Positions 27,292-40,345 of a stretch of 64,000 nt of DNA are shown piece by piece. The position numbers and the translations under genes are program-made. The notes under the pieces are model-generated. The model saw only the letters and a list, made by a program, of their open reading frames with translations. It was not told the DNA's origin and ran no database searches. The stretch is from Rhizobium sp. RM (GTDB taxonomy: Bacteria; Pseudomonadota; Alphaproteobacteria; Rhizobiales; Rhizobiaceae), in contig NZ_JACAWV010000023.1 in NCBI RefSeq assembly GCF_013390595.1, positions 186,001 through 250,000 on the forward strand, read 5' to 3'. Within the stretch, counting starts at the first letter, position 1; each line of letters begins with the position of its first letter.

Positions 27292-29223
27292 TTATTCGAC
27301 AACGACAGACAGTGTCGAACCGGTGTAAACCGGGCGTAGCTTCACATCACCACTGTCGATCGATGCAAAGGTTCCGGCAAGACCGTCCGTTCTCAAAACC
27401 TCGAACCGGGTTCCGGCAGATGGCGCTGCACCATCAAACTTAAGGTGGAGGCTTCCACCGTCGATTTGCGCGTGGCCCTTGATCTCAACAGGGCCGTTAG
27501 AGAGATCAACAGCAAGCGTTCCGCTCGTGATGACAAGGCTGCCGGCACCAAGGGCATTGGCTGATGCTGCGACCAGCGTTCCCTCGTTCAGCACAGTTCC
27601 GCCGCTATAGCTGTTGTTGCCGCTCAGTGTGAGGGCGCCGCTTCCCGATTTGACGAGGCGCCCTGCCCCCGAAATGTCATTTGTCCAGCGATCTGCCGCG
27701 TTGAAGCCACCGGCAGCAGCATCCATGGTGACGTGGACGTCGCCGTCAAACGAACCGTAACCGGCAGCGGCAGCAACGAGATTGATGCGACCCCAGCCAT
27801 TGCTGTCATCGAGCAATGGATAACCGGCCTCGATACCCGTCGAGAAAAGAACTGCCCGGCGCTGGGCAACGTCGAGATAGGGCAACCGCGTTTCAAGAAG
27901 AACCTCTGCGCCCTTCGGAACAACCATCGTCGTATTACCAACGCCTGCCTTACGGCTGAAGGAGAATGTCATCCGTTCGCGGTAATCGGCCTTGTTGGCC
28001 GTTTCATCTACGAAACGATCAAGGCTTGCGTCCTGGCTGTGGGCGAAGACCAGCAAAGATTGTCCCTCCGGCAGGCGCTTCTTGAAATAGGTCTGCAACT
28101 CGTCATAAGCCGCCTTCTTGGCGTCTGCATTTTTGGGGTCCTGCAGCATTGCGGCAGCCATGGCGGTTGCCGAGATCCTGCCACCGATGACATCGAGAGG
28201 CGAATGCATGCCAGCGACAACCCGGCTCTCACCCAGTTCGGAAGCCATCGTCAGCAACTCGGAAAACCGCTCCGGCACTGCATAGGCGTAGGCGATGGCA
28301 GCGAGATAAGCGGCATTGGTGTGACCGCTCGGAAAACCGCCGTCTTTCGGGCGTCCGCGATTTTCGCGGGCATATTTCAGTGCCGGGACAATCACGCCTG
28401 GATCATTCTCGTAAGCCTCGAACTTGCGGTCACCGATCGTCTCGGTCCCGGTCTCGTTGACCTCACCCTTGTCATTCATGCGCCAGGGACGTGGTGAGGA
28501 ATAGAAATATTTGGCCGGCGAAGTGGTCCCTTCAGGGCCTCTCATCACCTTCATGAATGCAACGAAGTTCTTGAGTTCGGAATCAGGCGCGCCGGCTTCC
28601 GTACCCTTGTCGTCTTCCTTTCGTTCGATAACCTCGTTCGGATTGAAATCCGCAAGCGTGTGATTGATCGTTGTCGTCGCACCGGCACCCTCGCGATACC
28701 ATTGAGCAAGTGGGCCCATGCCCTCGATCACGCTGTAACCCTGCGAACGGCGGTCATTCATATAGGCCGCAAAAGCTCTCTCGGGTGTTCTGTTCTTGCC
28801 GGTTACAGAGAGAACGTAACGCATGTTCTCTTCCCAGACTGCGGGATCGACGATCCTGACGTGACTGAAGTCGGTCGGGCCGTCGCCATTCGCACCACCA
28901 TCAGCCCATTTTTCATCGCCCAGTGTCCAGATCCGGTTAAAGCCTGAGAGGATGTCGATGACCGGGTTATCCTTGTCATCATAGGCCCTGACATCCTTGC
29001 CCTCGGCGTTTTTGCCGGTCTGGTTGCGGTAGTTATCCGCGAAGGGCAACGGGTACTGGGTGGCCGGCTCCGGCACCAAAATCGAATAGCCCTGGCCTTG
29101 TGGTGCGCTATTATCGAATGCACCGGCACCTGCAACAGTGGTCAGGAGAGAGACGGTGGCAAGCAAGGTTAGCCGCAGGGGCGGAAAATACGAGTTCAGT
29201 CTGGCCATGATGTTGAATCCCAT
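27292..29223 (-). CDS. PAP2/class A acid phosphatase fused to an autotransporter-associated repeat
   Basis: A 643-residue exported protein. After a signal peptide of about 35 residues the enzyme domain shows the complete class A acid phosphatase pattern: K-x6-R-P (KYFYSSPRP, near residue 236), FPSGHTNAAYL, and SRVVAGMHSPLD, with the usual Lys, Arg, Ser, Gly, His, Arg and Asp ligands. Residues after about 515 form a PATR-type beta-strand repeat (GRLVKSGSGALTLSGNNSYSG, then LNEGTLVAASANALG), and the protein ends without an autotransporter beta-barrel. It should release phosphate from organic phosphates in the periplasm or at the cell surface. ATG 29223 and ATG 29208 are both possible starts. 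It stands alone on its strand. Confidence 0.88.
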   Translation of the reverse strand: MGFNIMARLNSYFPPLRLTLLATVSLLTTVAGAGAFDNSAPQGQGYSILVPEPATQYPLPFADNYRNQTGKNAEGKDVRAYDDKDNPVIDILSGFNRIWTLGDEKWADGGANGDGPTDFSHVRIVDPAVWEENMRYVLSVTGKNRTPERAFAAYMNDRRSQGYSVIEGMGPLAQWYREGAGATTTINHTLADFNPNEVIERKEDDKGTEAGAPDSELKNFVAFMKVMRGPEGTTSPAKYFYSSPRPWRMNDKGEVNETGTETIGDRKFEAYENDPGVIVPALKYARENRGRPKDGGFPSGHTNAAYLAAIAYAYAVPERFSELLTMASELGESRVVAGMHSPLDVIGGRISATAMAAAMLQDPKNADAKKAAYDELQTYFKKRLPEGQSLLVFAHSQDASLDRFVDETANKADYRERMTFSFSRKAGVGNTTMVVPKGAEVLLETRLPYLDVAQRRAVLFSTGIEAGYPLLDDSNGWGRINLVAAAAGYGSFDGDVHVTMDAAAGGFNAADRWTNDISGAGRLVKSGSGALTLSGNNSYSGGTVLNEGTLVAASANALGAGSLVITSGTLAVDLSNGPVEIKGHAQIDGGSLHLKFDGAAPSAGTRFEVLRTDGLAGTFASIDSGDVKLRPVYTGSTLSVVVE

Positions 29224-29461: not shown

Positions 29462-30742
29462 TTATTTTTTGACGGCAACGGCTTCGTTGATCTTTGCCAC
29501 GTCGTCTTCCAGAACCTTGTAGGTCTGGTCGAGCGTCAGCTCACCGACGATAAGCTGGCTCATGCGCTGCACGATCTGCTGGTAGACGGCAGTGCTACCC
29601 TTCGAATGTTCGAATTCGCGTGCGGCCTGGGGTACGTTCTTCTGATTGTCGAGGAAGACCTTCATCGCTGCCTTGGCATCTTCGCTCTTCAGCTTGTATT
29701 GCGGATCGGTGATTTCGGCGCCCGTCAGGACCACGTAGTTTTCAGCGATTTCACGCTGTACCTTTTCGGAGCCGAGGAACTCGATGAAGTGTGCCACGTC
29801 CTCAGGATATTTGGTGCGCTTGAAACCGACAACCGCTGTGCCACCCGACATGGTGTAGCAACCGGCCTCGCCGCAAGGCGCACTAAGGGCAGCCCACTCG
29901 AATGCATCGCCGATCTTGTTCTGGAAGGGGTTCACCATCCAGTTGCCGGCAAGATAGGTCACGACGTTTCCGTTGACGAATTCATCGCCCATGTTCTTGT
30001 ACTGGGAACCGCCGGCAGCGCCCCACATCTCCTTGGGGAAGCTTCCGTTCTGCGTCCAGGAATAGACGTCGGCGATATATTTTTTCGTCGCATCGTCAGG
30101 GAAGCTGAACTTGCCATCCTTCACGTAGGATGCCCCATAGGAAAAGGCACCGCCGGAAAACCGGTGGCCGGAACGGTCCATGGTGAAGGGGATCTGTACG
30201 CCGGTTGCTTTTGCAACACGAGCTGACGCCTCGACGATCTCACTGAATTTGGCCGTTGGTCCAGGTACCGGCTCGCCGGCCTGCTCGAACAATGTCTTGT
30301 TGACGAATGGCAGATTGAAGGTCTGCGAGGCGATATAGCCATTGAGCGACTGCGGATCGTTGATGCCTTTCAGGCGAAGACGGTCGAGGCTCGTTCCATG
30401 CAGCTTTGCAAAACCTTCCGGGTCTTTCATGTAGGGCCGCATGTCGAGATAGAAAGGTGCGAGCTGCCAATCGGTGATCTTGGCAACGTCAGGTCCTTCG
30501 CCGACGGCCAATTGTACGGGCAACTGCTTGGAGACAGCGTCATAACCCGACGACACAAAATTCACTTTAACGTCCGGATTGGCCGCCTCGAACTCCTTGC
30601 TGAGTGCAGCCATCCGTTGCACATAGCCCTGATCGTCATCGGTGAATAGAAACGTGATCGTTCTGGTTTCCGCCTGCGCTGCAGACAAGCTCGCGAGCGT
30701 AACAAAAGCAAGGGCGCTGACGCCCGAAAACAACTTCAGCAT
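29462..30742 (-). CDS. Sugar ABC transporter substrate-binding protein (UgpB-like)
   Basis: A 426-residue family 1 extracellular solute-binding protein. It has a signal peptide ending SAAQAE, TITFLFTDDDQGYVQRMAALSKEFEAANPDVKVNF, and later GGTAVVGFKRTKYPEDVAHFIEFL, typical of CUT1 binding proteins. It is divergent from the operon that encodes the matching ATPase and permeases, so it is the probable receptor for the oligosaccharides those genes degrade. The start is ATG 30742, preceded by GGGAGG. Pectin-derived (rhamnogalacturonan or unsaturated oligogalacturonide) fragments are the likely ligands from gene context; the ligand is not readable from the sequence. Confidence 0.88.
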   Translation of the reverse strand: MLKLFSGVSALAFVTLASLSAAQAETRTITFLFTDDDQGYVQRMAALSKEFEAANPDVKVNFVSSGYDAVSKQLPVQLAVGEGPDVAKITDWQLAPFYLDMRPYMKDPEGFAKLHGTSLDRLRLKGINDPQSLNGYIASQTFNLPFVNKTLFEQAGEPVPGPTAKFSEIVEASARVAKATGVQIPFTMDRSGHRFSGGAFSYGASYVKDGKFSFPDDATKKYIADVYSWTQNGSFPKEMWGAAGGSQYKNMGDEFVNGNVVTYLAGNWMVNPFQNKIGDAFEWAALSAPCGEAGCYTMSGGTAVVGFKRTKYPEDVAHFIEFLGSEKVQREIAENYVVLTGAEITDPQYKLKSEDAKAAMKVFLDNQKNVPQAAREFEHSKGSTAVYQQIVQRMSQLIVGELTLDQTYKVLEDDVAKINEAVAVKK

Positions 30743-30821
30743 GCACAACCTCCCAATGAAAACTTTTTCACAAATCGAACCGAAGCTCCTCTGATCAATT
30801 CGATTTCGGATGTTTTGCGAC

Positions 30822-30842: not shown

Positions 30843-30936
30843 TGTTTCTTCCCAATAAATTCGACAGTTCGGACCGCAATCGCAAATTCCGCTCTGTGAA
30901 ATTATTTTCATAATGATCGACGGGAGGCGATCCACT

Positions 30937-33459
30937 ATGACTGATGAGCCCTTTGTGGCGACACGTTCGGCACCCACATATACAGTTGAAAAAGGTGACA
31001 CCGTCACGGCCTGGGTGGTCTCGAAGCTGATCGAGACCGCATTTCCCGGGATTGCTGCGCCGGCCGAAGACCGCGTCAACTATCGTTTCATCAACGGCTT
31101 CGTCGATGTCGGTGACCTGCCCTGCCGCAAGGCCTTTCAAAGCACAATGATCGGCCGCAACATCGCGCCCGACGCAGACTGGGCCCATTCTCATCTCAAC
31201 CTGCCGGGTTCGAACCGCCGCGTCGAGTTTACCGGCTTCTGGCATGTCCCGACCCATGTCCGCCGCTGGCTGAAGGGAACGTTTCGTACCGAAACGGCCC
31301 GTACCGTTGATCTGCGGCTTGCGACCTGCGGGGGCGTTCGGATCTGGGTCAACGGGGTCGAACAGGTTCGGTTTGAACCCTTCATCCGTAACGTCGAAAA
31401 CAAATGCGATATCAGCCTTCGCCTTGAGGCTGGAGACAACGAGATCCTCCTTCATTGCGAGGATCTGGCCGAGCGCGACATCATCTGGTTCTTCGAACTG
31501 GAGGTCATCGACAACCATGCCCTGACGGTTGTGCTTCCTGTTGCTCTCGACAGGGACGAGACGAGCCGGCTTGCCGCTCTGGTGCGCGACATCAGGCCGG
31601 CGCTCGATGTCTTTGTCGACACGCCGCTCGAACTTGTCTTCGACGCAGCGACCGACAAGCCATTACCAATCCAAGTCGCCGTCACAAGTCATGGTCATGA
31701 CCGCGCCGTTCTCGCCAGCATCGAAACCGTACTGACGCCCGGGCAGACCTCGCTCAAAATACCCCAGACTGTCGGCATTGCGGATGGCTATCATGGCGTG
31801 AAGGTCACGATCGGCTCGGGCACAGGGACTGTCACCCGGTCGATCGACGCTGCATTCATGAGCAATCTCGACCCGGTCGACGCAGGCGACGAGATCGAGG
31901 CGAGAAAGGCAGCAGCCCTCTCATTCAGCGCACGGTACGGCGCCTGGCGCATCGGACGGGCGCTTGCGATGGTCGCGACCGGTAGCGATGACAACGAGAC
32001 GATCGACGGAATCATCGCATCGACGCTTCATTCGATCGACGCGCGAGAAGATTGCTCGGACTTTGTCCTTGTGCCGCTTCTATGGCTTGTGCGCGCCTAT
32101 GGCGACCGGCTGCCGGTCGAGACCGTGGCAAGGATCAATCGGTCAATCGTCAATTACCGCTACTGGGTTGATGAACCCGGCAATGATGTCATGTGGTTCT
32201 GGAGCGAGAACCACGTGTTGTGCTTCCACACCAGCCAGTTGCTGGCAGGTGATTATTTGCCTGATGCCATATTCACCGCCTCCGGCCGCACCGGACGCCA
32301 GCAGGCTGCGCTTGCTTCCGAGCGCCTCGCCCGCTGGTTCGAAAGTGTGGAGGGGCATGGTCTCGCCGAATGGAATTCGGCCGCCTACTACCCGGTGGAC
32401 TTCATCGGGCTGCTTGCCATCGAACATTGGGCTCATCCGGAGCTTGCCGCCCGTGCGCGCCATCAGCTTGATCTCATCTTCGAGATGATCGCGCTCCACA
32501 CCTTGAATGGCGTCCCCTCGGGATCTCAGGGCCGCGCCTACGACAAAGAGTTGCGCGCCGGTCCTCTCACCGAGCTTGCGCCTTTTGCCCAGGTCGCATT
32601 CGGCAAGGGCTGGCTGAATGGTGGCGTTGCATCGCTTCCGATGTTTTGCTGCGGCGGCTATCTGCCACCTGCAAGGCTGACCTCTCTCGCTGCACTTGAT
32701 GAAAACCGAGTGATTGAGGCGAGGTACGCGCAGGGTCTCGAGGCCGGCAAACTTGTGCTCTTCAAGAACGAGGCGGCACAGCTCTCAACCGTGGTGGACC
32801 ACAAGACCGGGCGTAAGGGCCACCAGCAGCACGTGATGGACATCAAGCTTGCCGGCCACCCGATGGCGCGGCTCTGGGTCAACCATCCCGGCGAAGACGA
32901 TCCCTGGGGAACACAGCGCCCATCCTACTGGGCCGGAAGCGGCATTCTGCCCCGCGTTGCCCAACACCGTGATCTGGCAATGCTGATTTTCGATACGGCC
33001 GATCATCGTAACGACTGGACACACGCCTATCTCGGGCGCGACGGACTGGATGAGACAATCCAGGACGGCAACTGGCTGATTACCCGTGCTGGCCGCGGCT
33101 TTGCCGCTCTTTATGCAAGCAATGGCCTTGAAGCGATCATGACTGGCGCGACCGCCGGACGCGAAGTTCGCTCCCATGGGAAACGATGCGGCTGGATCGG
33201 CACTATCGGATGCGGCGATCAAGAGGATTTCTCGCGCTTCCGCGCCAGGGTGCTTGCAACGGAGGTGGCCTTTGATCCCGACCGTCGCGTGTTGACGGCG
33301 ACCCCGCCCGGCAGCCCTCAAATCAGTCTTTCATGGGACGGCGTATTCACCATTGGCGAAAAGGCAATGGCTTTTAATCACGAGCAACCCCAGCCCGAAC
33401 TGACGCTCGACAGCAACAAGACCGCTGCGAGCAATGCCCACCAGCTTTTCTATTCATGA
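30937..33459 (+). CDS. Unrecognised 840-residue protein of a pectin-utilisation operon
   Basis: I do not recognise a named family. The protein has no signal peptide and should be cytoplasmic. Residues about 30-200 look like a beta-sandwich (the GGVRIWVNGVEQVRF stretch resembles carbohydrate-binding folds). Residues about 330-560 are helix-rich with aromatic and acidic patches, including MWFWSENHVLCFHTSQLLAGD and LAEWNSAAYYPVDF, which suggests an alpha/alpha-barrel with Glu, Asn and His at an active-site-like position. The C-terminal third is beta-rich. This layout is seen in several polysaccharide lyases and hydrolases. It heads the operon that continues with GH105 and GH28 enzymes and an ABC transporter, so it probably acts on imported pectic oligosaccharides. 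The ATG at 30937 follows GGGAGG; an earlier ATG at 30913 is less likely. Confidence 0.7.
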   Translation: MTDEPFVATRSAPTYTVEKGDTVTAWVVSKLIETAFPGIAAPAEDRVNYRFINGFVDVGDLPCRKAFQSTMIGRNIAPDADWAHSHLNLPGSNRRVEFTGFWHVPTHVRRWLKGTFRTETARTVDLRLATCGGVRIWVNGVEQVRFEPFIRNVENKCDISLRLEAGDNEILLHCEDLAERDIIWFFELEVIDNHALTVVLPVALDRDETSRLAALVRDIRPALDVFVDTPLELVFDAATDKPLPIQVAVTSHGHDRAVLASIETVLTPGQTSLKIPQTVGIADGYHGVKVTIGSGTGTVTRSIDAAFMSNLDPVDAGDEIEARKAAALSFSARYGAWRIGRALAMVATGSDDNETIDGIIASTLHSIDAREDCSDFVLVPLLWLVRAYGDRLPVETVARINRSIVNYRYWVDEPGNDVMWFWSENHVLCFHTSQLLAGDYLPDAIFTASGRTGRQQAALASERLARWFESVEGHGLAEWNSAAYYPVDFIGLLAIEHWAHPELAARARHQLDLIFEMIALHTLNGVPSGSQGRAYDKELRAGPLTELAPFAQVAFGKGWLNGGVASLPMFCCGGYLPPARLTSLAALDENRVIEARYAQGLEAGKLVLFKNEAAQLSTVVDHKTGRKGHQQHVMDIKLAGHPMARLWVNHPGEDDPWGTQRPSYWAGSGILPRVAQHRDLAMLIFDTADHRNDWTHAYLGRDGLDETIQDGNWLITRAGRGFAALYASNGLEAIMTGATAGREVRSHGKRCGWIGTIGCGDQEDFSRFRARVLATEVAFDPDRRVLTATPPGSPQISLSWDGVFTIGEKAMAFNHEQPQPELTLDSNKTAASNAHQLFYS

Positions 33460-33472
33460 GCGGACACACCAG

Positions 33473-34567
33473 ATGAACCAGACACAGACGAATAACGACG
33501 CCCTTAAGACCACGATAGACAAGGTCGCGGTCGCCTTCAGTCGCCTCAAGGGTATTCAGGAGGGCTTGGTCAACGGCAGTGCCGACGGCAAGATCCAGTT
33601 CGATGAGTGGGACTGGGAGGTCGGCGTCGGCCTTTACGGCTTCCTGCGCCGGGCATTGGCAGCTAACGACCGCAAGGCCATCGATGACCTCGTCACATGG
33701 TATAGCTGGCAGATCGAGCGCGGTATTCCGCCACGCCAGATCAACAGCTCCGCACCGATGCTGCCCCTCGTCATCCTGACCGAACATGTCGACCGGCCGG
33801 ATTTCCGCGCGCTCGTCGAAGACTGGGCAGACTGGCTGGTCCACAAATTGCCGAAGACCGAAGACGGTGGATTTCAGCATGTCGTCAAAGAGCGCCTGAA
33901 TGACGGCGAACTGTGGGATGACACGCTCTTTATGGCATGCCTGTTCCTCGCTCGCGCCGGCGTTGTCTGCAAGCGGCAGGACTGGATCGACGAGGCCGTC
34001 TACCAGTTCGTCATTCACGCCCGTTATCTGTCCGATCCTGTCACGGGCCTCTGGTACCACGGCTGGACCTTCAATGGCCGTCACAACTTTGCAAACGCCT
34101 TCTGGGCACGTGGCAATTCCTGGATCACGGTCGCCATCCCGGAACTTTTCGAACTCGTGCCTTCACTCGCAGAGAAGGACAAGCGGTTCCTGGCAAATGT
34201 TCTGGCCAGCCAGGTGAAATCCTTGCGCCGGTTTCAGCGCGAGGACGGCATGTTCCACACGCTCCTCGATGACCCGACGTCACCGGTCGAAACCTCGGCA
34301 ACGGCCGGCATCGCCTATGGCATCCTGCGCGGTATCGAGGCCGGCATCCTCAGCAATGACAATCGCCCCCTTGCAGACGATGCTTTGAAGGCAGTGCTTG
34401 GCAATATCGATGCCGATGGCGTCGTCCACGGTGTCTCCGATGGGACTCCGATGGGACATGACCTCGATTTTTACCGCCGCATTCCAAATCTGCCGACACC
34501 CTACGGACAGGCTTTGACGATGCTCCTCCTGATCGACGTCTCCCTTGAAGAGGACAAGGCAGCATGA
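33473..34567 (+). CDS. GH105/GH88-family unsaturated (rhamno)galacturonyl hydrolase
   Basis: A 364-residue alpha/alpha-barrel enzyme, like YteR, expected to remove the unsaturated uronic acid from the non-reducing end of oligosaccharides produced by pectate or rhamnogalacturonan lyases, by hydrating the 4,5 double bond. The motif ELWDDTLFM carries the catalytic-type Asp, and GLWYHGWTFNGRHNFANAFWARGNSW follows in family order. The length matches the family. There is no signal peptide, so it acts after import. ATG 33473 is chosen; it lies 13 bases after the 840-residue protein, and the gene overlaps the next by ATGA. Confidence 0.9.
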   Translation: MNQTQTNNDALKTTIDKVAVAFSRLKGIQEGLVNGSADGKIQFDEWDWEVGVGLYGFLRRALAANDRKAIDDLVTWYSWQIERGIPPRQINSSAPMLPLVILTEHVDRPDFRALVEDWADWLVHKLPKTEDGGFQHVVKERLNDGELWDDTLFMACLFLARAGVVCKRQDWIDEAVYQFVIHARYLSDPVTGLWYHGWTFNGRHNFANAFWARGNSWITVAIPELFELVPSLAEKDKRFLANVLASQVKSLRRFQREDGMFHTLLDDPTSPVETSATAGIAYGILRGIEAGILSNDNRPLADDALKAVLGNIDADGVVHGVSDGTPMGHDLDFYRRIPNLPTPYGQALTMLLLIDVSLEEDKAA

Positions 34568-35913
34568 CCAGGCTGGCCTTCGACATCTTAGCGACCGGCA
34601 GCGAGGCTACCGAAGACATCCAGACGGCGATCGATAACGTTAGCAACGCTGGCGGCGGACGCGTCACACTCAAAGCTGGACGCCACATCACCTCTGGCCT
34701 GACATTGAAGAGTGGTGTCGAGTTGCATCTTGAAGAAGGAGCGGTTCTCGCCCCCCTTCCCGATTATGAGGCTTATCGATCAACCTCCGTATCCGTGATT
34801 GCCGAAAGCTCTGACCGCGGCATGATCGTTGCAAAGAACGCGCACGATATCGCCATCACTGGCCCAGGCGCCATTGAGGCCGGCAGCGAGCATTTCATTA
34901 TCGGCGATGATCAGGCCATGGGAACCTGGATCCCGGCGGCCCTTCGCCCGCGTGTCGTGGTTTTCGAGGGATGCAGCAATGTGCGCCTTGAAAACCTCGA
35001 TGTGGCGGGATCGCCGATGTGGTCGCTCCACATGATCGATTGTGAAGACATTCTCTTCAAAAATGTCACTGTTACCAATGATCGCCGCCTGCCCAACACC
35101 GATGGCATCGTACTTGATGCATGCCGTCGGGCGCTGATTGAGGATTGCAGGATATTCACTGCAGACGACGGCGTGGTGCTGAAGACCAGCGCCGGGCCTG
35201 ATGGAGAGGCTGTCGGGCGCTGCGAAGACATCATCGTTCGCCGATGCGATGTTTCCAGCATGAGCTGCGCGCTGAAGCTCGGCACCGAATCCTTCGGTGA
35301 TTTCGCCAATATCACCTTTGAAGATTGCAGGGTTACGCAATCCAACCGGGCGCTTGGCCTGTTCTCGCGCGATGGCGGTGCACTCAGCAATATCCGGTTT
35401 GCGCGCATTGATGTGGACTGCCAGGAAACGCCGGGCGGTTTCTGGGGATCAGGGGAAGCCTTAACGGTCACTGTTGTCGATCGCAGGCTGGAGCGACCGG
35501 CAGGACGGGTCGAAAATCTGACCGTCGAGGATCTGACCGGCCGCATGGAAGGTGCGATTAATCTGGTCTCCGTTTCTGAGGCTGGTATCCACAACGTCAA
35601 GCTTGAGCGGGTTCGCCTCTCCCAGGAAAAGGGCAAGCTTGGAACGGGTACGCAATACGACATTCGCCCCACCAATGCCGATCTCGCCCCAAGCCCAGAG
35701 GCGGCAGGACGGGCTAACGCCTGGACATGCGACGAGGACGGCAAGATCGTCGGGCTCGAAGACTACCCTGGCGGAATGCCAGGTATTTATCTCGAAGGCG
35801 TGCACGGCTTTTCCGCTGAGAGCGTCGACATCACAAGAACAATGCCCTTGCCAGAGGGCTGGAATGCAAAAGAGCTCGTCGAAGCGGCGAACTCGCCTGA
35901 AGGGAGCAGGTAA
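34564..35913 (+). CDS. GH28-family polygalacturonase-like protein
   Basis: A 449-residue right-handed beta-helix protein. The N-terminus (ATEDIQTAIDNVSNAGGGRVTL) is the usual helix cap. The active-site block NTDGIVLDACRRALIEDC and the TADDGVVLK pair supply the catalytic aspartates of GH28. The usual GHG and RIK motifs are not clear; LGTESFGDF stands where the former is expected, as in some rhamnogalacturonan-type or exo-acting relatives. No signal peptide is seen, so it is probably an intracellular exo-enzyme on imported galacturonides. Its start overlaps the GH105 stop and its stop overlaps the ATPase start by one base. Confidence 0.85.
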   Translation: MTRLAFDILATGSEATEDIQTAIDNVSNAGGGRVTLKAGRHITSGLTLKSGVELHLEEGAVLAPLPDYEAYRSTSVSVIAESSDRGMIVAKNAHDIAITGPGAIEAGSEHFIIGDDQAMGTWIPAALRPRVVVFEGCSNVRLENLDVAGSPMWSLHMIDCEDILFKNVTVTNDRRLPNTDGIVLDACRRALIEDCRIFTADDGVVLKTSAGPDGEAVGRCEDIIVRRCDVSSMSCALKLGTESFGDFANITFEDCRVTQSNRALGLFSRDGGALSNIRFARIDVDCQETPGGFWGSGEALTVTVVDRRLERPAGRVENLTVEDLTGRMEGAINLVSVSEAGIHNVKLERVRLSQEKGKLGTGTQYDIRPTNADLAPSPEAAGRANAWTCDEDGKIVGLEDYPGGMPGIYLEGVHGFSAESVDITRTMPLPEGWNAKELVEAANSPEGSR

Positions 35914-37019
35914 TGGGAAGTCTTAAACTTGCAAACCTCAACAAGGCATTTGGTGCCGTACATGTTCTGCATGACATCGATCTCGACATCAACGACGGGG
36001 AGTTCGTTGTGTTCGTCGGCCCGTCGGGCTGCGGAAAATCGACGCTTCTGCGCATCATTGCCGGCCTTGAGGACATTTCATCGGGCAATATTTCGATCAG
36101 CGACCGTGATGTGAGCGCGCTTTCACCAGCCGAGCGCAAGATCGCCATGGTCTTCCAATCCTATGCGCTTTACCCGCATATGAGTGTCCGCAAAAACCTT
36201 GCCTTCGGCCTCGAAAATCTTCGTTTCAAACGCGCCGAAATCGAAAGCCGGATCAACGAAGCAGCCCGCATGCTGGCAATCGAGCCCTATCTCGACCGCA
36301 AGCCGCGTCAGCTCTCCGGGGGCCAGCGCCAGCGCGTTGCGATCGGCCGCGCCATTGTGCGAGAACCGGATATCTTCCTGTTCGATGAACCGCTTTCCAA
36401 CCTCGATGCGGCGTTGCGCGTCCAGACACGTGCCGAAATCACCAGGCTGCATCGCGACATCAAAACGACGATGATCTACGTTACCCACGACCAGGTCGAA
36501 GCCATGACAATGGCAGACAAGATCGTGGTGCTGCGTGCCGGACGCGTCGAACAAGTCGGCAGCCCGCTCGAACTTTTCGACAATCCACGCAATCTTTTTG
36601 TGGCCGGCTTCCTCGGATCGCCGCGCATGAACATCATCAAGGGACGCGTGGTGACATCAAGCGATGGCACGATAGCAATCGATGCGGGTTATGGCGCACC
36701 GTTGCCTTGCCTTGTCGACCCTTCCGCCGTGACGGTTGGTCAGGAGGTTATGGCCGGTATCAGGCCATCGCATTTTGCCATTTCACAGGATGGCGGCCTG
36801 CCGTTCGAGGTCCAGTACTACGAGAGCCTCGGGACAGAAACCTATATCTACGGTAACCTTCAAGGCCAGAAGGATCCGATCATCATCCATCAGGCAGGCC
36901 ATTTCGCCCCCGTATCCGGTTCAATCCTGAAGATTGCCCCGGCGCGCGAACGCGTCCATGTCTTCGATCCGGTCACGGAGCTGGCCTTGCCGCGCCTTGC
37001 CGACCAGGGGAGAGGTTAG
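35913..37019 (+). CDS. Sugar ABC transporter ATP-binding protein (MalK/UgpC-like)
   Basis: A 368-residue ATPase of the CUT1 sugar importers. Walker A GPSGCGKST begins near residue 36, the Q-loop follows in MVFQSYALYPHM, the signature is LSGGQRQRVAIGRAI, Walker B is DIFLFDEPLSNLDA, and the switch His is in VTHDQVEAMTMA. The C-terminal 130 residues form the regulatory OB-type domain of MalK-like proteins. It is translationally linked to the GH28 gene (TAATG) and lies 1 base before the first permease gene, so it drives uptake for this operon. Confidence 0.93.
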   Translation: MGSLKLANLNKAFGAVHVLHDIDLDINDGEFVVFVGPSGCGKSTLLRIIAGLEDISSGNISISDRDVSALSPAERKIAMVFQSYALYPHMSVRKNLAFGLENLRFKRAEIESRINEAARMLAIEPYLDRKPRQLSGGQRQRVAIGRAIVREPDIFLFDEPLSNLDAALRVQTRAEITRLHRDIKTTMIYVTHDQVEAMTMADKIVVLRAGRVEQVGSPLELFDNPRNLFVAGFLGSPRMNIIKGRVVTSSDGTIAIDAGYGAPLPCLVDPSAVTVGQEVMAGIRPSHFAISQDGGLPFEVQYYESLGTETYIYGNLQGQKDPIIIHQAGHFAPVSGSILKIAPARERVHVFDPVTELALPRLADQGRG

Positions 37020-37020
37020 G

Positions 37021-38016
37021 ATGGTTGCTCCCAATATATCAGGAATTGCCGATCGGGCCCTCGAAGCGGCAATGGCGCTGATCGAGCGCCCGCTCAACGT
37101 TCTGGAACGAGTGATCGGCAGAAAGCGCATGCCGTACCTCTTCCTGATGCCTAACCTCGTCCTTTTTGGCATCTTCACATTCCTGCCAATCGCAATCGCC
37201 GTCGGTTATGCCTTTACAGGCGGCACCGAACTTCTGATCTCGGATCGTCCCTTCGTCGGTCTCGACAATTTCAGCAAATTGCTGGATTGCACGAGCTACA
37301 TGGACCCGGGAAGCTGCCGTGAATCGCTCTTCTGGACGGCGATCTGGAACACGCTGTGGTTTGTTGCCTTCAATGTCATCGCGACCCTTTTCGTTGCCCT
37401 GGTCACAGCGCTGATCCTCAACCGGGCGATTGCCGCGCGCGGTTTCTTCCGGGCCATGTTCTTCTACCCCGTTTTGCTTTCGCCTGTAGTCATCGGCCTG
37501 ATCTGGAAGTGGTTCCTCGATCGTAACGGGCTGCTCAATGCGTTCTTCCAGATGCTCGGTGTTCCCCCTGAGATTTTCCTTCTGGACGTCGGCTGGTCGC
37601 GCTTCTTTGTCGTCGTTGTATCTGTCTGGTTCCATATGGGCTTTTACACACTGATCCTGCTGGCTGGCCTTCAGGCCATTCCAAAGGATCTTTATGAAGC
37701 GGCCGCGATTGACGCTGCCTCGCCGCGACACACTCTGTTTCGGATCACGTTGCCGCTGCTCGGGCCCAACCTTCTTGTCGTGCTGATCCTTCTCATGATC
37801 CGCTCGGTACAGATCTTCGATGAGGCCTGGGTGCTGACCAATGGCGGCGGGCCCGGTACCGCCAACACCTTTGTCGTTCAATATATCTACCAGATGGCAT
37901 TCGGCAGCGATCTGAGGCTGTTTGGCCTTGCCTCCGCCGCGTCCGTGCTGATGGGCCTTGTGCTCCTCGTCCTGACACTCGTGCAGCTACGCCTCGGTAA
38001 GAAAATGGAGTCCTGA
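37021..38016 (+). CDS. Sugar ABC transporter permease, MalF-like
   Basis: A 331-residue inner-membrane protein with six predicted helices and the EAA loop EAAAIDAASPRHTLFRITLPL near residue 230, which contacts the ATPase. The first helix (YLFLMPNLVLFGIFTF) and the large periplasmic loop fit the MalF/UgpA group. The ATG at 37021 is used; the same frame runs upstream into the ATPase gene without a real start. It pairs with the MalG-like protein 2 bases downstream. Confidence 0.9.
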   Translation: MVAPNISGIADRALEAAMALIERPLNVLERVIGRKRMPYLFLMPNLVLFGIFTFLPIAIAVGYAFTGGTELLISDRPFVGLDNFSKLLDCTSYMDPGSCRESLFWTAIWNTLWFVAFNVIATLFVALVTALILNRAIAARGFFRAMFFYPVLLSPVVIGLIWKWFLDRNGLLNAFFQMLGVPPEIFLLDVGWSRFFVVVVSVWFHMGFYTLILLAGLQAIPKDLYEAAAIDAASPRHTLFRITLPLLGPNLLVVLILLMIRSVQIFDEAWVLTNGGGPGTANTFVVQYIYQMAFGSDLRLFGLASAASVLMGLVLLVLTLVQLRLGKKMES

Positions 38017-38018
38017 TC

Positions 38019-39077
38019 ATGTCCGGCAATCTCAATGCAATCGGGTTCCTCACCAGAACCCGCCGCCCGGGACGGGTCGGTCTGACCGACATCCTCTCCT
38101 GGGTTTGGCTGATCGGCGGGACGTTGGCCGTCCTCGTCCCCGTGGTGTGGGCCGCCATGTCCTCGATGAAACCGGAAGCGGAAATCACCCGTTTTCCGCC
38201 AAGCCTTCTGCCGCGCACTGCAGTTCAGGTGGAGGTTCAGGGTTATGACAAACCGTTGAGCCTCTGGAACGTCACCATCAATGGTGAAGCGCGTGAAATG
38301 GCGATGGTCCGCCGCATCGGCATCAAGGCTCAGATGGTCGATCCGAATACGCCCGGTGAGCCTGTCAGCGTCGACACCCGCGAAATTTCGCCCGTTCAGC
38401 GCCTGACCATTGCAACCGAAAACTTCACCGACCCCCTCACGCAGTTCAGCTTTCTAACCTTTCTCAAAAACTCCGTCTTCGTCACGACAGTGGCAACGAT
38501 CCTCACCCTGATCGTCAACGCCATGGCAGCCTTCGCGCTTTCGAAATACAAGTTCCGTGGCGACAAGGCGATTTTCGTGCTGATCATCTCGACCCTGATG
38601 ATCCCGCTCACCGTCGTCATGGTCCCGGCTTATCTGGTGGTTGTCGGTGTTGGTCTCGTGGACAATCTCTGGGGCGTCATCATTCCGACCGTCGCCACGC
38701 CGACAGGCGTTTTCCTGCTACGACAATATATGCTGACTATTCCAGATGAGTTGATCGAGGCGGCCCGCGTCGATGCCGCCAGTGAATTCAGGATTTTCTG
38801 GCGTATCATCTTGCCTTTGACCGCACCGGCACTTGCAGTGCTTGCGATCTTCTCGGTTCTATGGCGCTGGAACGACTTTCTCTGGCCGTTGATCGTGCTT
38901 TCCAGCCGCGAGAACTTCACGTTGCAGGTAGGCCTCAATTCGTTCCAGGGCGAGTTTTCGGTACAATGGCACTATATTCTCGCCATGACCTTCCTCAGCC
39001 TTGCGCCTGTTACGCTCGTGTTCCTGTTCCTGCAGCGTTACATCACCACCGGTATTGCCGGCACGGGAATGAAATAA
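38019..39077 (+). CDS. Sugar ABC transporter permease, MalG-like, with long periplasmic loop
   Basis: A 352-residue permease. Helix 1 (VWLIGGTLAVLVPVVWAAM) is followed by about 110 residues of mostly hydrophilic sequence before helix 2. This is a longer external loop than most MalG-like proteins have and could contact the binding protein. The EAA loop is EAARVDAASEFRIFWRIILPL, and the last helices end with YITTGIAGTGMK. It completes the importer; no terminator is seen directly after it. Confidence 0.9.
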   Translation: MSGNLNAIGFLTRTRRPGRVGLTDILSWVWLIGGTLAVLVPVVWAAMSSMKPEAEITRFPPSLLPRTAVQVEVQGYDKPLSLWNVTINGEAREMAMVRRIGIKAQMVDPNTPGEPVSVDTREISPVQRLTIATENFTDPLTQFSFLTFLKNSVFVTTVATILTLIVNAMAAFALSKYKFRGDKAIFVLIISTLMIPLTVVMVPAYLVVVGVGLVDNLWGVIIPTVATPTGVFLLRQYMLTIPDELIEAARVDAASEFRIFWRIILPLTAPALAVLAIFSVLWRWNDFLWPLIVLSSRENFTLQVGLNSFQGEFSVQWHYILAMTFLSLAPVTLVFLFLQRYITTGIAGTGMK

Positions 39078-39087
39078 GAGCGTAAGG

Positions 39088-40134
39088 CTATTTCGGGGGC
39101 GGCGCGATGCTGCCCCTGAGAATGAGACGACAGCCCAGTTCCAGCCTGTGTGCCGGGCGTGACGGATCGGCAGCCACAAGTCGTTGCTCGAGCAGGGAAA
39201 GGGCAGCACCTCCGAGCCTGTCGGCCGGCAGCTGTATGGTGCTCAAAGGCGGCGCGCTGAAAGTCGCCGGCATGATGTCATCAAAACCCAGGACGGAAAC
39301 GTCCTCGGGGACCCGAAGCCCCGCTTCCGTCAGGGCCTTGAGACAGCCGAGTGCCAGATTGTCTGCCGCACAGAAGATCGCCGTCGCATTGCGCAACGGC
39401 GGATTTTCCTGAAGGAGGGCCTGAATTGTCCGTTCACCGCATTCAGGCTCGTAGCTTTCTGCCTCGACAATCATATCCGCGGGGACGGGTAGACCTGCAG
39501 CAAAGAACGCGTCGCTATAACCATCGTAGCGGCGGCGGATTGTTGTGCGGCCTTTCCAGGTGATGTGCAGAACCTTGCGATGTCCGAGAGACAGAAGGTG
39601 CTCGATACCGAGCCTGGCGCCAAAACGGTTTTCAGCCGTCACCGTATCGACGACCATGGCCGGGTCCTCGCCATTGATGAGGACGACGGGCTTGTGCAAT
39701 GCAGCCAGTGCCTGGACGAGTTCCTGACGGTCGTCGTTCAAGACGACGATACCATCGACATTTGAGGCCGCAGCAACCTCTCCCACCTCGGCGGGATCGA
39801 GCCGGTTGCTCGCACTGACGAAGGGCACGATGCGAATTCCACGCCTTTCGCATTCACGCCGAAAACCATTCAGCATGGTCCAGCTTACCATGTTGAGATC
39901 GCTTTGGGGCGCTGCGTCATTGGTCATTGCCAAGAGCACGACACGCAAAGTCGCAATGGTTGCTTTCTGTCGCCGGTTTTCGAGATAACCGAGAGAGCGG
40001 GCCGCCTCAAGGACGCGCTCGCGAACCTCGACTGTCAGCGGTGCTGTTCCGTTGATGGCATGGGACGCCGTGCTCAGCGAAACATTCGCCTCACGCGCCA
40101 CATCCTTGAGTGTCGGTTTCCTGTCGACTCTCAT
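39088..40134 (-). CDS. LacI-family transcriptional regulator (first)
   Basis: A 348-residue repressor-type regulator. The N-terminal helix-turn-helix (TLKDVAREANVSLSTASHAIN) and hinge (VLEAARSLGYLEN) are followed by a periplasmic-binding-protein-like sensor domain (LGIEHLLSLGHRKVLHIT, VLGFDDI). It is convergent with the permease gene, with only 10 bases between stops. It probably controls the pectin-oligosaccharide operon in response to a sugar product. The start ATG 40134 is the one that places the helix-turn-helix at the usual distance. Confidence 0.88.
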   Translation of the reverse strand: MRVDRKPTLKDVAREANVSLSTASHAINGTAPLTVEVRERVLEAARSLGYLENRRQKATIATLRVVLLAMTNDAAPQSDLNMVSWTMLNGFRRECERRGIRIVPFVSASNRLDPAEVGEVAAASNVDGIVVLNDDRQELVQALAALHKPVVLINGEDPAMVVDTVTAENRFGARLGIEHLLSLGHRKVLHITWKGRTTIRRRYDGYSDAFFAAGLPVPADMIVEAESYEPECGERTIQALLQENPPLRNATAIFCAADNLALGCLKALTEAGLRVPEDVSVLGFDDIMPATFSAPPLSTIQLPADRLGGAALSLLEQRLVAADPSRPAHRLELGCRLILRGSIAPPPK

Positions 40135-40345
40135 GCGGCAGAGCCGGTCAACCACTGGTCTGCGGATGGCGCGGGCGGCATGCAACTCAACTCCCTGCAG
40201 AAGGCTTCTGAAACATCCGACGTCTGTATCGGAATATTTCCAAGACTATAACATCGCCTGCAAAAGCGGAATCGATTTCTGTGCTTTGCTCGCCTTTGTG
40301 TACACTCATCACGAGGTGACTATATTGACCGGCTTGTTTGCCCTT

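Follow-up and report, generated by a model that had tools for sequence, protein, structure and literature searches.

The 840-residue protein encoded at positions 30937-33459 on the forward strand of the window (the whole 64,000-nucleotide stretch analysed here) is rather likely to be a cytosolic enzyme of the polysaccharide-lyase type, which would cleave an imported uronate oligosaccharide by β-elimination and feed the neighbouring GH105 protein and KduI/KduD. On the predicted models its lyase chemistry is moderately well supported; its action is probably exo, and the neighbouring genes alone indicate, weakly, what it acts on, which in the Rhizobiaceae branch would be pectic.

The open reading frame and its distribution

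Positions 30937-33459 form an exact open reading frame of 840 codons starting at ATG 30937. A longer in-frame ORF of 848 aa starts at ATG 30913; the shorter one is preferred because the GGGAGGC preceding ATG 30937 is unchanged in 12 of 12 aligned sequences and because ATG 30913 directly adjoins the lyase-side operator-like site (30895..30911). The ORF is real and under purifying selection, with dN/dS values of 0.11-0.16 in five of six comparisons and a saturated dS in the sixth, and its reading as an artefact is rejected. An ORF of the same length in another locus (L068:11581-14100, 840 aa, no Pfam match) is unrelated by BLAST and perhaps spurious.

The gene is widespread in plant-associated Rhizobiaceae. 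Orthologs with 73-80% identity occur in 20 of 36 genomes of the same genus (own genome excluded), and matches were obtained in one of 24 order-level genomes (G041, 48% identity, with no GH105 match there), in nine of 398 genomes of an even phylum sample (own genome included) and in 200 of 72,556 plasmid records, three of them haloarchaeal. Relatives are present in marine Rhodobacterales and a haloarchaeon. The plasmid matches listed carry the product name 'hypothetical protein' where they are named, the others being without annotation. Our search of the open-access literature yielded no paper that we recognised as describing the protein, and a description may exist in print.

For the comparison of loci, 80 of the 168 relatives were surveyed. 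Alignment A1 comprises 38 of these 80 loci, after omission of near-duplicates, unclear starts, the truncated L057 and L099 (internal stop), and alignment A3 retains 37 of the 38, L072 being omitted for an insertion. Alignment A2 holds 24 diverse homologs, near-duplicates omitted: the window protein and 23 loci, of which 10 came from the survey of relatives, eight from the phylum sample and five from plasmids.

Predicted fold

The predicted model of the full-length protein (pLDDT 86.3, pTM 0.88) comprises a jelly-roll or sugar-binding-like domain (residues 18-194; 30988..31518), an FnIII/Ig-like domain (residues 211-308; 31567..31860), an (α/α) toroid (residues 317-585; 31885..32691) and a C-terminal β-sandwich (residues 593-806; 32713..33354), all encoded on the forward strand and the last two with edges taken from secondary structure. 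The preliminary description had proposed a β-sandwich, a helical barrel and a β-rich part, a layout that the models bear out. The first domain shows a weak PA14 signal (found by Pfam in 12 of the 39 homologs, with E down to 3.1e-5) and matches 3cmg in the VIA comparison (Z 9.4, rmsd 2.8, 119 residues aligned), and the second matches 4gh7 (Z 9.5, rmsd 2.5, 87 aligned); in the model this N-terminal part resembles the jelly-roll domains of GH2 enzymes and FnIII domains. Since the haloarchaeal relative, of 661 aa, aligns only from residue 349 on, the front domains seem to be separable.

GH2 enzymes dominate the Foldseek matches of the whole model because of its two N-terminal domains, and folding the C-terminal 530 residues alone (AlphaFold model, pLDDT 86.7, pTM 0.89) resolved this. 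With the latter model, all 18 PDB chains at E ≤ 0.001 were toroid lyases (17 chains of PL12, PL15, PL17, PL35 and PL39) or dermatan-sulfate epimerase (one chain), at Foldseek probabilities of 0.98-1.00. The TMq of the lyase-clan matches is modest (0.35-0.46) and the rmsd large (9.5-13.9), which can arise if the two domains hinge differently. The best VIA match was the PL35 chain 8khw (Z 11.6, rmsd 5.5, 381 aligned), followed by PL17, PL12, PL39, PL8 and the epimerase at Z 8-10.4; the lyase alignments take in 375-441 residues and both domains, whereas those with glycoside hydrolases and glucuronate dehydratase (Z 8.0-9.0) take in 213-241 residues and the toroid only. With helical folds, a shared arrangement alone can give Z values up to about 13; despite this, we assign the fold to the lyase clan because both domains match together and the Foldseek list is clean.

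The predicted model therefore has the toroid and the antiparallel β-sandwich of the clan that includes PL8, PL12, PL15, PL17, PL21, PL23, PL33, PL35 and PL39; that is, its fold is modelled as the (α/α)6-toroid plus antiparallel β-sandwich of the heparinase/alginate-lyase clan, which favours a lyase over a hydrolase. PL21, PL26 and PL33 are absent among the fold matches listed, an absence that carries no weight for or against these families. Confidence in the domain model is lowest at 414-422, 531-539, 658-662 and near 831, segments that include highly conserved motifs.

Sequence comparison with known families

Searches of Pfam, NCBIfam and PDB sequences returned no convincing relative of the protein, in agreement with its earlier description as belonging to an unknown family. 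A profile of 39 homologs gave two matches at E ≤ 10 against the PDB, neither of them a lyase; as a control, the PL15 protein of the same genome, used alone, finds PL35 chains in the same database with E values of 2e-9 to 4e-7. A stray BamB match appeared for one of 24 members (E 0.0028). Pfam holds models for the PL26 exo-rhamnogalacturonan lyases, and no lyase model was among the nine families listed at E ≤ 1 for the 39 members. Comparison by hhalign with 12 PL15-type sequences was not significant (prob 0.6-0.8, P 0.07-0.10), the control of heparinase against PL15 reaching prob 32.2 and P 4.8e-4, and the sets of PL15 and heparinase II/III gave nothing significant; a first series of shallower templates was too weak even for its own control (prob 3.0). 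Sequence profiles do not place the protein in PL15, and sequence similarity does not place it with the PL8, PL12, PL17, PL21, PL23, PL35 or PL39 members that have PDB entries. Given that no sequence match to the PL families tested was found while the controls do match, the protein is therefore likely to represent a new lyase family on a known fold, apart from those families; a CAZy family may already hold it. Structure prediction with a Foldseek search, which the preliminary description had named as a check, gave a confident match to characterised families at the level of fold and none at the level of sequence.

Two other assignments were rejected. A GH105 function does not apply to the 840-aa protein itself, PF07470 not being listed for it at E ≤ 1 and matching its neighbour, and a simple pectate-lyase homolog is likewise rejected; no PL1, PL22 or PL11 Pfam model matches the protein.

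Conserved residues and candidate active site

Across the 24 diverse homologs, whose identity goes down to 26%, 35 columns are invariant. These include W420, E424, N425 and H426, so that the WFWSENH motif (residues 420-426; 32194..32214, forward strand), which the preliminary description considered conserved from its appearance, is confirmed as such, together with H431, E478, S481, Y484 (32386..32388, forward strand) and D488, and further on R533, Y535, Q630, W665 and H696. The catalytic Asn/His and Tyr of PL8, PL12, PL15, PL17, PL21, PL23, PL35 and PL39 are tabulated in Table 4 of PMC12088678, and those of PL33 are described in PMC11848413. From the residue numbers in these two sources we computed an Asn/His-to-Tyr spacing of 53-63 residues for the clan, 2Q1F being excluded because its neutraliser is an Asp. 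The same order and spacing are found in the sequence of the 840-aa protein, where Y484 follows N425 by 59, H426 by 58 and H431 by 53 residues; in the model a helix spans residues 424-440 and Y484 lies just ahead of helix 490-498. We propose on this sequence pattern that N425/H426 (or the downstream H431) and Y484 correspond to the clan's catalytic Asn/His and Tyr. Which residue takes the Asn/His place is uncertain, because the non-significant profile alignment with PL15 pairs H311 of that family with H431 and not with H426. The clan's β-sandwich His does not clearly have a counterpart in the homolog alignment: H629 is conserved in 13, H632 in 15, H650 in 23 and H696 in 24 of 24 homologs. All 12 sequences of the PL15 set have H311, Y365 and H531.

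Among characterised enzymes, the PL15 oligosaccharide (oligo-alginate) lyase Atu3025 (3A0O/3AFL), an ortholog of which is also encoded in this genome (L120), shares the predicted two-domain fold (Foldseek E 4.9e-6, prob 1.00), and its H311 and Y365 are 54 residues apart, against 53 (H431) or 58 (H426) to Y484 here. However, the profile similarity between the two is not significant, their N-terminal modules differ, and no invariant counterpart of the β-sandwich His H531 was identified in the 840-aa protein. The PL35 enzymes (GAGase VII 8KHW, GAGase II 8KHV, and 9O3Q) are the best structural match and have the Asn-then-Tyr order in common with it, but they act on glycosaminoglycans, show 8% identity in the structural alignment and give no sequence match. 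The fold is likewise common to PL17 (Alg17c, 4NEI/4OJZ) and PL39 (Dp0100, 6JP4), with VIA Z of 9.0-10.4. Both have an Asn-His followed by a Tyr, as in the 840-aa protein: N201 (PMC12088678, Table 4) and H202 (title of 4OK4) with Y258 in PL17, and N186-H187 with Y239 in PL39. These two families are alginate lyases, and no sequence similarity between them and the protein was found.

Operon and pathway genes

As first described, the gene is the first of a pectin-type operon that also encodes GH105, GH28 and a CUT1 importer, and it ends 13 bp upstream of the gene for a GH105/GH88-family unsaturated uronyl hydrolase-like protein (33473..34567; PF07470, E=1.6e-102). The nearest PDB entries of the latter include 3qwt, a 'putative GH105' (E=3.3e-86, the nearest), and 3pmm. 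On the same strand follow a GH28 of the PglB-type polygalacturonase family (34564..35913; Pfam E=1e-14; NF051861 with 714 bits, above the PglB model cut-off of 600), a UgpC/MalK-type ATPase (35913..37019) and two CUT1 permeases, the first at 37021..38016 (PF00528, E=2.3e-11; start chosen from the reading frame) and the second at 38019..39077; the ATPase and both permeases are so annotated in the R. johnstonii counterpart. A LacI-family regulator (39088..40185; PF00356/PF13377) and a divergent substrate-binding protein (29462..30742; SBP_bac_1, E=3.3e-18) lie on the reverse strand. By simple hydropathy, the N-terminus of this binding protein is signal-like and a strongly hydrophobic N-terminus is absent from the lyase at either start, in line with the earlier view that it lacks a signal peptide. 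NCBIfam NF051900 labels the 33473-34567 product 'beta-galactosidase BglB', at odds with Pfam GH88, and is possibly a misleading product name for a GH88/GH105-family protein. Beyond the binding protein, the product of 27292-29223 (reverse strand) has a PAP2 acid-phosphatase domain and one passenger-associated transport repeat, with no autotransporter barrel among its Pfam matches.

The full set of seven genes is found in 44 of the 80 related loci, and GH28 is present in only 44 of them. Among the 46 closest loci (L021-L066, lyase identity at least 55%), the gene leads this same uptake operon in 44, with GH28 and GH105 next to it; of the remaining two, L057 lies on a cut contig and L063 has GH105 alone. 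GH105/GH88 was detected by tblastn at E ≤ 1e-15, a cut-off at which divergent copies may be missed, in 61 of the 80 loci, in 60 of them on the same strand and 13-141 bp away; of the 19 loci without it, at least two (L057 and L069) are truncated by the end of a contig. The whole 5.59-Mb genome has two GH88-family genes only. Of the 36 same-genus genomes, the 20 that have the lyase, and no others, have a GH105 ortholog (at least 84% identity); some of the remaining 16 have just a distant paralog (26-31%).

KduI (44% identity to a Shinella KduI) is encoded on the same contig, along with KduD-like SDR, uronate-dehydrogenase-like and DHDPS-type genes, the roles of the last three being read from family and context; with these genes the use of 5-keto-4-deoxyuronate is plausible. 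In the five remote plasmid homologs inspected, kduI adjoins the gene in three (L115, L116 and L118) and lies in the same cluster in L114; none is listed for the haloarchaeal locus L117. The pectin lyases PL1, PL22 and PL11 would fill the same kind of pathway job, and searches of the genome with their models found none, the controls being detected.

A second GH88-GH28-CUT1 operon, without the lyase, was observed in the genome (G000:C22:58000-88000; L163, L164) near TRAP-type, KduI, KduD-like and uronate-oxidation-type genes, and because of it GH88/105 does not need the lyase as a partner. This operon resembles the picA/pglA region of C58 in PMC6683767 and may be its counterpart. PglB (Atu4560 in C58), to whose region the present operon is likened by its GH28, has been linked to polygalacturonate degradation (PMC6683767); the account given there of the C58 region covers PglA, PglB and picA, and a lyase-like neighbour is not part of that account. 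The maltose-type transport gene atu4559 (KEGG naming) is reported as up in the tea group versus the tobacco group (PMC9138961) and, going by its gene number alone, may belong to the C58 counterpart of the lyase operon.

Proposed function and alternatives

In the mechanism we propose, the CUT1 transporter would import an oligosaccharide that contains uronate and, in the Rhizobiaceae branch, would be pectic, and the 840-aa enzyme, with its sugar-binding-like jelly roll and FnIII module in front, would cleave it by β-elimination. The N425/H426/H431 cluster would neutralise the carboxylate and perhaps act as base, Y484 would serve as acid/base, possibly with a β-sandwich His or Tyr, and after cleavage the new non-reducing end would carry a 4,5-unsaturated uronate. 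The GH105 next door would take off this residue, GH28 would trim saturated galacturonate, and the released 5-keto-4-deoxyuronate would pass to KduI/KduD elsewhere in the genome. If the protein is a lyase, it supplies the step that would make the substrate of GH105 inside the cell, and it takes a fold familiar from alginate and glycosaminoglycan enzymes to the sugars of the plant cell wall. More tentatively, and short of what we would call probable, the protein could be the founding member of a new PL family in which an alginate/glycosaminoglycan-lyase fold acts on galacturonate (axial O4); it would then account for the cytosolic lyase reaction that is missing from the use of pectin oligosaccharides by Agrobacterium, Rhizobium and Sinorhizobium.

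A lyase of the same fold might instead act on a uronate glycan other than pectin (glucuronate in arabinogalactan, glucuronoxylan, a bacterial exopolysaccharide or an algal glycan), with GH28 as a partner in Rhizobiaceae only. This would suit the limited presence of GH28 over the 80 loci, the marine and haloarchaeal relatives, and toroid lyases described in PMC12088678 and PMC11848413, which act on glycosaminoglycans, alginate and gellan and not on galacturonan. It would also suit five Devosia loci in which no GH105 was detected and where Pfam, run on 18 proteins (17 ORFs of selected loci and one of the window), places near the homolog a GH29 α-L-fucosidase (L096:11466-13046, L098:11709-12989) or a GH38 α-mannosidase (L093:11480-14587, L083:4802-7849, L099:5871-8453), hinting at substrates that differ across the family. 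We nevertheless regard it as unlikely: both GH28 and GH105 accompany the gene in all but two of the 46 closest loci, and a Thioclava relative has rhamnose-uptake and kdu genes in its vicinity.

A glycoside hydrolase with an (α/α)6 barrel, newly related to GH127/GH146/GH92-type enzymes, is improbable: the acidic residues E424, E478 and D488 are invariant and the GH127 structure 6ex6 was matched (Foldseek E=5.7e-3, prob 0.63), but hydrolases rank below all 18 lyase-clan chains, with probabilities of at most 0.84 among the 50 matches listed, and in the VIA comparison they cover the toroid only. Of the lyase-or-hydrolase architecture initially suggested, then, the lyase part agrees with the heparinase/alginate-lyase fold matches and the hydrolase part is disfavoured by them. 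It is very improbable that the lyase fold here serves a uronate C5-epimerase, as in dermatan-sulfate epimerase, or another uronate enzyme that does not cleave: 6hzn does figure in the list of 18 top fold matches (VIA Z 10.3, rmsd 6.0, 441 aligned), but the neighbouring GH105/GH88 and kduI/kduD genes suggest that the products are unsaturated.

Promoter-region palindromes

Both ends of the divergent promoter region carry the operator-like palindrome TGTGAAANNNTTTTCAT, at 30756..30772 (reverse strand) on the side of the substrate-binding protein and at 30895..30911 (forward strand) on the side of the lyase. Its core is exact in 12 of 12 aligned sequences on the former side and, on the latter, exact in four and with one mismatch in eight. 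The pattern was derived from the two window sites, whose own match is by construction; shuffles of the window give an expected core count of 0.04. The genome scan found no third exact copy and one site with one mismatch, the reversed control giving none. This putative operator pair points to a dedicated regulon, perhaps controlled by the LacI-family regulator encoded at the end of the operon.
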